Source of the DNA: Halorubrum trapanicum | Lineage (GTDB): Archaea > Halobacteriota > Halobacteria > Halobacteriales > Haloferacaceae | Direction: 5' to 3' | Length of the DNA stretch: 64,000 nucleotides | NCBI RefSeq assembly: GCF_017873555.1 | Contig: NZ_JAGGKE010000008.1 | Coordinates: 1 to 64,000, forward strand | Shown: piece by piece, positions 1 to 50,535 of the stretch | How positions within the stretch are numbered: position 1 is the first letter of the stretch | Layout: the number at the start of each line of letters is the position of its first letter | Translations under genes and position numbers: made by a program | Notes under the pieces: model-generated | Database searches by the model: none | Told to the model about the DNA's origin: nothing | The model's input: the letters and a program-made list of their open reading frames with translations, nothing else

Positions 1-104
1 ACCTCGCGCCTCCCCCGCCTCGTCGCTGGCGGCTATCGCCGCCAGCGACTCCCTCGCGCGTGCGACTCACGCCCTTCGGGCGTTCGTCGGCACGCGCCAC
101 CGCG
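1..104 (+). repeat. Structured dispersed repeat, copy C (3' part only)
   Basis: This is the right-hand part of a dispersed element seen again at 20503-20758 and 50275-50535; its left part lies before the window. A perfect 12-bp hairpin (22-33 with 38-49, loop TATC) is followed by the linker TCCCTCGCGCGTGC. A second hairpin follows: ACGCCC 69-74 with GGGCGT 78-83, flanked by a TC/TC internal loop and CGAC/GTCG. It is enclosed by GCGCGTGC 56-63 pairing with GCACGCGC 90-97. The element ends in CACCGC, as in the other copies. Hairpin sequences differ from the other copies, but the linkers are the same. No coding function is supported. Confidence 0.8.
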
Positions 105-20312: not shown

Positions 20313-20502
20313 ACTCGCGTGTCGTTCCGGCGGGCTTGTGTACCCGTCGGTCCCGAGAAGACAGATACGCAGTTCCTGCGCGCACCTGTTTCAAATCTTC
20401 AGTCGTCGGTTTGTAAATGGACTCTGACGGGTCCACAGCGACCACCTCCAAAGCCCCAGCCGCCCGGTTGGACGCAACTGACTCTCGAACAGCGGAGAAC
20501 GC
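20313..20502. other. Intergenic: arsA upstream region and outer repeat module
   Basis: Holds the arsA promoter region and, on the plus strand, a TATA-like TTTGTAAAT (20410-20418). A first AAGCCCCAGCC module (~20448-20465) resembles the start of the structured repeat that begins near 20503. No coding sequence is supported. Confidence 0.5.
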
Positions 20503-20758
20503 CTCCGAAGCCCCAACTGCGAGGACGCCGGACGCTCGTTGCGCTCCTCACTCGGTCGCTTCGCTCCCTCGTTTCGGTGCTTACGTCGCCTCCGGCGTCC
20601 TCGCAGTTGCCCCTTTGAGTCCCACCCCGACCGGAACCGCACCGCGGCCTCACACCTCCCCAGCCTCGCCGCTCACGCCCTGCGGGCGTTCGCGGCGTCC
20701 CTCGCGCGTGCGACTCGCGGCCGCCGGTGGCGGCCGCTCGCAGGCACGCGCCACCGCA
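20503..20758 (+). repeat. Structured dispersed repeat, copy A
   Basis: Complete copy. It opens with CTCCGAAGCCCCAACTG. A 19-bp perfect stem pairs 20514-20532 with 20591-20609 around a 58-nt pyrimidine-rich loop. Then come CCCCTTTGAGTCCCACCCCG and CCTCACACCTCCCC, followed by hairpin 2 (20667-20672/20692-20697 and 20675-20680/20684-20689 with a TC/TC internal loop). After the linker GTCCCTCGCGCGTGC, hairpin 3 has inner stem 20717-20725/20729-20737 and outer stem 20704-20711/20744-20751. It ends in GGCACGCGCCACCGCA. It lies between the 3' end of aroA and the start of arsA. Stem sequences differ from copy B but pairing is retained. Confidence 0.85.
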
Positions 20759-50274: not shown

Positions 50275-50535
50275 CCGAAGCCCCAGCCGCGAGGCGGACA
50301 GACGCTCGCTGCGCTCCTCACTCGATCGCTCACTTCGTTCGCTCTCCCGTTCGGTGCTGGCGTCGCCTCTGTCCGCCTCGCGGCTGCCCCTTCGAGTCCC
50401 GCCCCGGCCGCACAGCGACCGCACCTCACGCCTCCCCAACCTCGCGGTTCGCGCTCTCCGAGCGCTCACCGCGTCCCTCGCGCGTGCTGTCTCGCGGCCG
50501 CCGATGGCGGCCGCTCGCAGGCACGCGCCACCGCA
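50275..50535 (+). repeat. Structured dispersed repeat, copy B (possible ncRNA)
   Basis: Complete copy. A 19-bp perfect stem pairs 50284-50302 with 50368-50386 around a 65-nt loop. Then come CCCCTTCGAGTCCCGCCCCG and CCTCACGCCTCCCCAACCTCG. Hairpin 2 pairs 50443-50448/50468-50473 and 50451-50456/50460-50465 with a TC/TC internal loop and 3-nt loop. After the linker GTCCCTCGCGCGTGC, hairpin 3 has inner stem 50494-50502/50506-50514 and outer stem 50480-50487/50521-50528, ending CACCGCA. It sits between the convergent 3' ends of the presenilin and PUA genes. Confidence 0.88.

Follow-up and report, generated by a model that had tools for sequence, protein, structure and literature searches.

BOX elements of Streptococcus pneumoniae, known only from streptococci, are high-copy intergenic composite repeats with a modular build, a predicted RNA fold and slow or no current movement (PMC3049150). 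In these respects they resemble the element described here, which was found in a 64,000-nucleotide stretch of Halorubrum trapanicum DNA (the window); some BOX elements have been shown to be expressed (PMC3049150). BOX copies differ in the number of their boxB modules (PMC3049150), whereas in the Halorubrum element the parts mostly keep their number and order, and it is the sequences of the hairpins that are replaced; the two also differ in sequence and in domain of life. REP and BIME sequences are likewise high-copy extragenic palindromes, but a REP is a single palindrome of 20-40 bp with a tag (PMC3733652), compared to a unit of ~250 nt with three hairpins and conserved linkers. The haloarchaeal PATEs come close in being non-coding, a few hundred bp long and heterogeneous among copies, with palindromes near their ends and no target duplication seen (PMC3119063; PMC10544981). 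The Halorubrum element differs from them in its three hairpins with conserved internal linkers, in sites that are mostly common between species, and in lacking end similarity to the IS605-type loci of its own genome. The right-end hairpin of the IS605/TnpB loci in that genome (the omega RNA end) shares GA-rich helix arms and a twin-hairpin module in the loop with the element, but it is tnpB-linked and lacks the linkers, and its short AAAGCCCCA resemblance is probably due to chance. No earlier description of the element was found in the open-access literature searched, and Rfam at the curated gathering score gave no match across the window with its three copies and only chance-level ones around the copy at 20507-20757.

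The sequence at 20660-20758, the subject of an earlier note on this DNA, constitutes the right half of a ~250-nt intergenic element (~20507-20757) flanked by aroA (EPSP synthase) and a gene for an ArsA-type ATPase, and is one of three copies within the window (1-103, ~20507-20757 and ~50277-50534). On the plus strand, the left part of the element runs through a foot (A/G)AAG, CCCC, the long hairpin 1, GCCC, a foot CTT(T/C) and GAGTCCC, and the right part through a variable GCACC/GCACAG spacer, CCTCACGCCTCCCCAGCCTC, hairpin 2, TCCCTCGCGCGTGC, hairpin 3 and GGCACGCGCCACCGC (Table 1).

Table 1. Parts of the element at the aroA locus and further copies in the window.
Feature	Position	Strand	Basis or remark
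Whole element	20507..20757	minus (strand inferred to fold)	Mismatch asymmetry (strand)
Hairpin 1 with foot GAAG (20507-20510) / CTTT (20613-20616)	20507..20616	minus	Inverted repeat 20514-20535 / 20588-20609; foot covariation
Conserved GAGTCCC linker following hairpin 1	20617..20623	.	Anchor motif TGCCCCTTYGAGTCCC, 124 genome matches
Conserved linker CCTCACACCTCCCCAGCCTC (minus: GAGGCTGGGGAGGTGTGAGG)	20648..20667	.	Alignments
Hairpin 2: GCCGC, TC/TC internal loop, ACGCCC, loop TGC, GGGCGT, GCGGC	20668..20697	minus	Sequence; identical hairpin 2 in L107
Linker TCCCTCGCGCGTGC; enclosing stem 5' arm = 20704-20711	20698..20711	.	Core-pattern matches, subtype comparison
Hairpin 3, with TC/TC internal loop	20712..20743	minus	Sequence
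GCACGCGC (enclosing stem 3' arm) and CACCGC (element right boundary)	20744..20757	.	Between-species flank orthology only beyond CACCGC
Left leader, which in many copies comprises a ~57-nt unit (TTATAAATA, GAACACC; tandem at times)	20440..20506	.	
Second complete window copy	50277..50534	minus	
Third copy, right end only; truncated at window/contig start	1..103	minus	

The two-armed core CCTCGCGCGTGC-N(10-60)-GCACGCGCCA had 81 exact matches in the Halorubrum genome, compared to none for a reversed-pattern control. Copies picked by an exact linker pattern are biased toward linker conservation; to remove this bias, an independent anchor motif adjoining hairpin 1 was used, whose 124 matches indicate about 124 copies in the genome. 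When genomes from 84,980 species were scanned, the matches listed were all from Halorubrum, apart from one uncultured archaeon bin. Weaker relatives, often in multiple copies, were detected in 12 other genera of Halobacteriales with a covariance model of 52 right halves, the model being of moderate information content and the scores in distant genera mostly modest. On the minus strand of these relatives the linkers are recognisable (GGYGCGCG, GCGCGAGGGA, GAGGTTGGGGAGGYGTGAGG, GAAAGGGG / GGGGCTTTC) and the hairpins are different; named plasmid-borne relatives include those of Halobaculum and Halorussus.

The linkers are strongly conserved though not invariant. As the earlier note had claimed, TCCCTCGCGCGTGC and GGCACGCGCCACCGC are exact in all three window copies, and the last hairpin of each is enclosed by pairing of GCGCGTGC with GCACGCGC. 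The claim of invariance holds for the window copies but fails genome-wide, where a subtype CTCGCACGCGC...GGCGCGCGCC occurs among the 124 copies found with the anchor motif. The outcome that the note named as refuting its proposal did not arise: the linkers vary little, and where the sequence of the enclosing stem changes, pairing is mostly retained by wobble on the minus strand. The 2x2 TC/TC internal loop was counted in nearly all hairpin 3s (196 in 222) and in many hairpin 2s (108 in 180). It is present where the earlier note had described it, and also, overlooked there, in hairpin 3 of the two copies (A and B) for which only a hairpin 2 loop had been reported.

Whereas linkers and pairing are conserved, the sequences of the hairpins are not. 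Among 63 copies, the pairwise similarities of hairpins 1, 2 and 3 were uncorrelated (Mantel r 0.00-0.05, within shuffles), and none of the 29 pairs with a near-identical hairpin 2 or 3 had a second hairpin in common. Unrelated loci, and other species too, can hold identical hairpins; an identical hairpin 2 was found at another locus of the same genome for 25 of 60 copies, and an identical hairpin 3 for 29 of 82. The copy at 20507-20757 has a hairpin 1 nearly equal to that of locus L117, whereas its hairpin 2 equals that of L107. At 31 pairs of sites with both flanks orthologous between species (mean 87% identity), the hairpins were as dissimilar as in random pairs, while the sequence directly beyond CACCGC was still more similar than random. 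The proposal of hairpins exchangeable between conserved linkers is thus borne out, with hairpins that are unlinked, common to unrelated loci and unrelated at orthologous sites. The further suggestion that hairpins move between positions 2 and 3 fares less well, as the TC/TC loop occurs at both but the repertoires are largely separate, with only the ACGCCC/GGGCGT apical hairpin (13 hairpin 2s, 4 hairpin 3s) and a CTCCGCTTCGCTCCGG apical extension in common.

Covariation in the right half is far above that of shuffles and slid-partner controls, and the outer pair of the hairpin 1 foot covaries over the genus (A/T 151, G/C 36, exceptions 12). The element therefore has the covarying base pairs by which a structured non-coding RNA is recognised. 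Single mismatches on the plus strand, in counts that take in related copies, were A.C rather than G.T in hairpin 3 (35 vs 0, or 18 vs 1 by distinct sequence), the enclosing stem (22 vs 4), hairpin 1 (29 vs 7) and, less markedly, hairpin 2 (13 vs 9). An A.C on the plus strand is a G.U on the minus strand, and the conserved TC/TC loop, retained in most hairpin 3s, reads GA/GA there; selection thus probably acts on the minus-strand fold. GA/GA forms a sheared tandem that is common in RNA and also stable in DNA. From the sequence patterns, the folded molecule is most likely RNA, with the proviso that G.T is better tolerated in single-stranded DNA too, so that the mismatch asymmetry does not in itself separate the two. 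Folding energy was rejected as evidence on strand: the minus strand was the more stable in 60 of 60 copies, but the difference between strands was nearly as large in shuffles (-25.9 vs -21.3 kcal/mol) and is mostly one of composition. It is possible to regard the element instead as a neutral DNA relic, in which pairing is maintained by copying between the arms of palindromes with no selection on the fold. The hairpins are often perfect, and a few copies (L050, L109, L247, L279) have a hairpin 1 interior inverted between the arms, which shows recombination or template switching between them. However, correction between palindrome arms would erase the TC/TC mismatch that most hairpin 3s retain, the mismatches are strand-asymmetric, and linker conservation spans families of Halobacteriales, all of which makes a relic very unlikely.

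The element also appears to have stayed largely in place. In other Halorubrum species, 55 of 112 copies adjoin sequence orthologous to the flank of a copy in the genome studied here, in the same orientation, in comparisons that cover part of the genome. Within 400 kb of one other genome (G054), 13 sites could be mapped, of which 11 were filled, 1 was absent and 1 was ambiguous, the genomes compared being from other species only. At the site that lacks the element the borders are unclean and no target duplication was found, and the aroA sites, which had seemed empty, proved to contain the element in G054, with an extra gene between it and aroA. No MITE-type terminal inverted repeat joins both ends of the copy at 20507-20757. 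Present mobility is not supported, as most sites are shared and neither a clean empty site nor a target duplication came to light, while a PATE-like mobile origin is possible. The corresponding alternative is a non-autonomous MITE/PATE-type element that an IS605-type (HUH) transposase would recognise by its hairpins in single-stranded DNA, that would have spread through transposition and whose heterogeneity would reflect many old subfamilies. Haloarchaea do bear PATEs that carry palindromes and are heterogeneous in sequence (PMC3119063), one PATE of Halorubrum lacusprofundi is expressed mainly from one strand (PMC10544981), and hairpins of one strand with tolerance of G.T would suit recognition as single-stranded DNA. 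The genome also holds 4 TnpA and 13 TnpB loci, yet the linkers or the model match in 0 of these 17. Further against this alternative, site and orientation are mostly conserved between species, the single absent site has the borders described above, phages and IMG/VR gave no match to the element, and plasmids gave only 9 places among 72,556. We consider it unlikely, and a link to IS605 transposons was negative for the element itself and positive only for the twin-hairpin modules nested in some copies (see below).

No copy of 83 overlapped a predicted gene, the gene calls near copies being made with a simple composition score. At 47 of 82 copies the right-end gene is read in the minus-strand direction and ends just short of the element, and copies lie least often between divergent genes (11 of 77), both of which would suit a 3' end or terminator element of adjacent mRNAs. 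This explanation is the one that we hold least probable, as the right-end gene has the opposite orientation at the other 35 of 82, all four neighbour arrangements are represented and a T-rich stretch in a fixed position was not noticed. A strict orientation relative to neighbouring genes, or an association with a gene or pathway, was not found. With regard to transcription, a search for a minus-strand promoter with proper spacing found none, and a TATA with the conserved GAACACC, at promoter-like spacing, points the opposite way from a minus-strand RNA. A TATA-like TTTATAAA lies 7-24 nt outside GCACGCGC in about half of the copies, irrespective of the direction of the next gene; it was rejected as a promoter of a minus-strand RNA, since the usual spacing would place the start inside the enclosing stem and the distance is variable.

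Judging by the sequence comparisons, we give about even credence to the reading that the element belongs to an old, mostly vertically inherited family of non-coding intergenic sequences of Halobacteriales, with selection for the fold of one strand, most likely as a minus-strand RNA, and with exchange of hairpins. A more specific version, put forward tentatively and with less confidence, is a multi-copy class of structured non-coding RNA across Halobacteriales, with ~100 loci per genome in Halorubrum, functional linkers and hairpins continually replaced from a genome-wide pool. The putative minus-strand RNA would start near GCGGUGGCGCG. Its purine-rich conserved linkers (minus strand: GCGAGGGA, GAGGYTGGGGAGGYGTGAGG, GTGGGACTNAAAGGGG) would be the recognition parts and the hairpins a scaffold, and any hairpin that pairs would be accepted because recognition would lie in the linkers; the pattern of conservation suggests that they are probably recognised by a trans-acting protein or RNP. 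Near-identical linkers would allow hairpins to be exchanged among copies by ectopic gene conversion in the polyploid genome, which is the simplest explanation of why unrelated loci hold identical hairpins; efficient gene conversion has been documented in Haloferax volcanii (PMC8223754, PMC11276520). The element is a clear natural example of wholesale replacement of stem sequences at fixed genomic sites with retention of linkers and secondary structure, and as such a system for testing ectopic gene conversion in polyploid archaea. Should the minus strand prove to be expressed, the element would also represent an undescribed class of haloarchaeal RNA that is not in Rfam.

Several copies carry additional sequences. 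Long C/G runs replace hairpin 2 in some (L079, L103, L114, L128, L374, L386, L395), and many contigs of the assembly (G000) terminate close to a copy, at a distance of no more than a few hundred bp; both probably reflect errors of sequencing or assembly where hairpins are strong. At L049, L067, L068, L118, L120, L378 and L385, the spacer from hairpin 1 to hairpin 2 contains a separate insert of ~110 nt (CCGGAAGACG...GCGGGACCGC). Some copies have on their left a tandem array of a ~57-nt unit that contains AAAGCCCCAGCCGCTCG and TTATAAATA (for example G000:C2:360626-360755); the unit may be a remnant of copies stripped of all hairpins. In the genome studied here, some copies carry twin-hairpin modules (~50-57 nt; a pair of perfect hairpins with a short joining linker), which are inserted at several points that recur among copies (L053, L054, L055, L060, L061, L080, L081, L083, L090, L102, L113, L115, L116, L120, L121, L130 and L376-L393), with two or more in tandem at L061, L120 and L130. 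A similar module occupies the loop of the right-end hairpin at a TnpB locus and also adjoins a TnpA gene (L346:1882-1943, L339:2001-2058), and it may therefore be a small mobile unit that targets the hairpin loops of unrelated elements.
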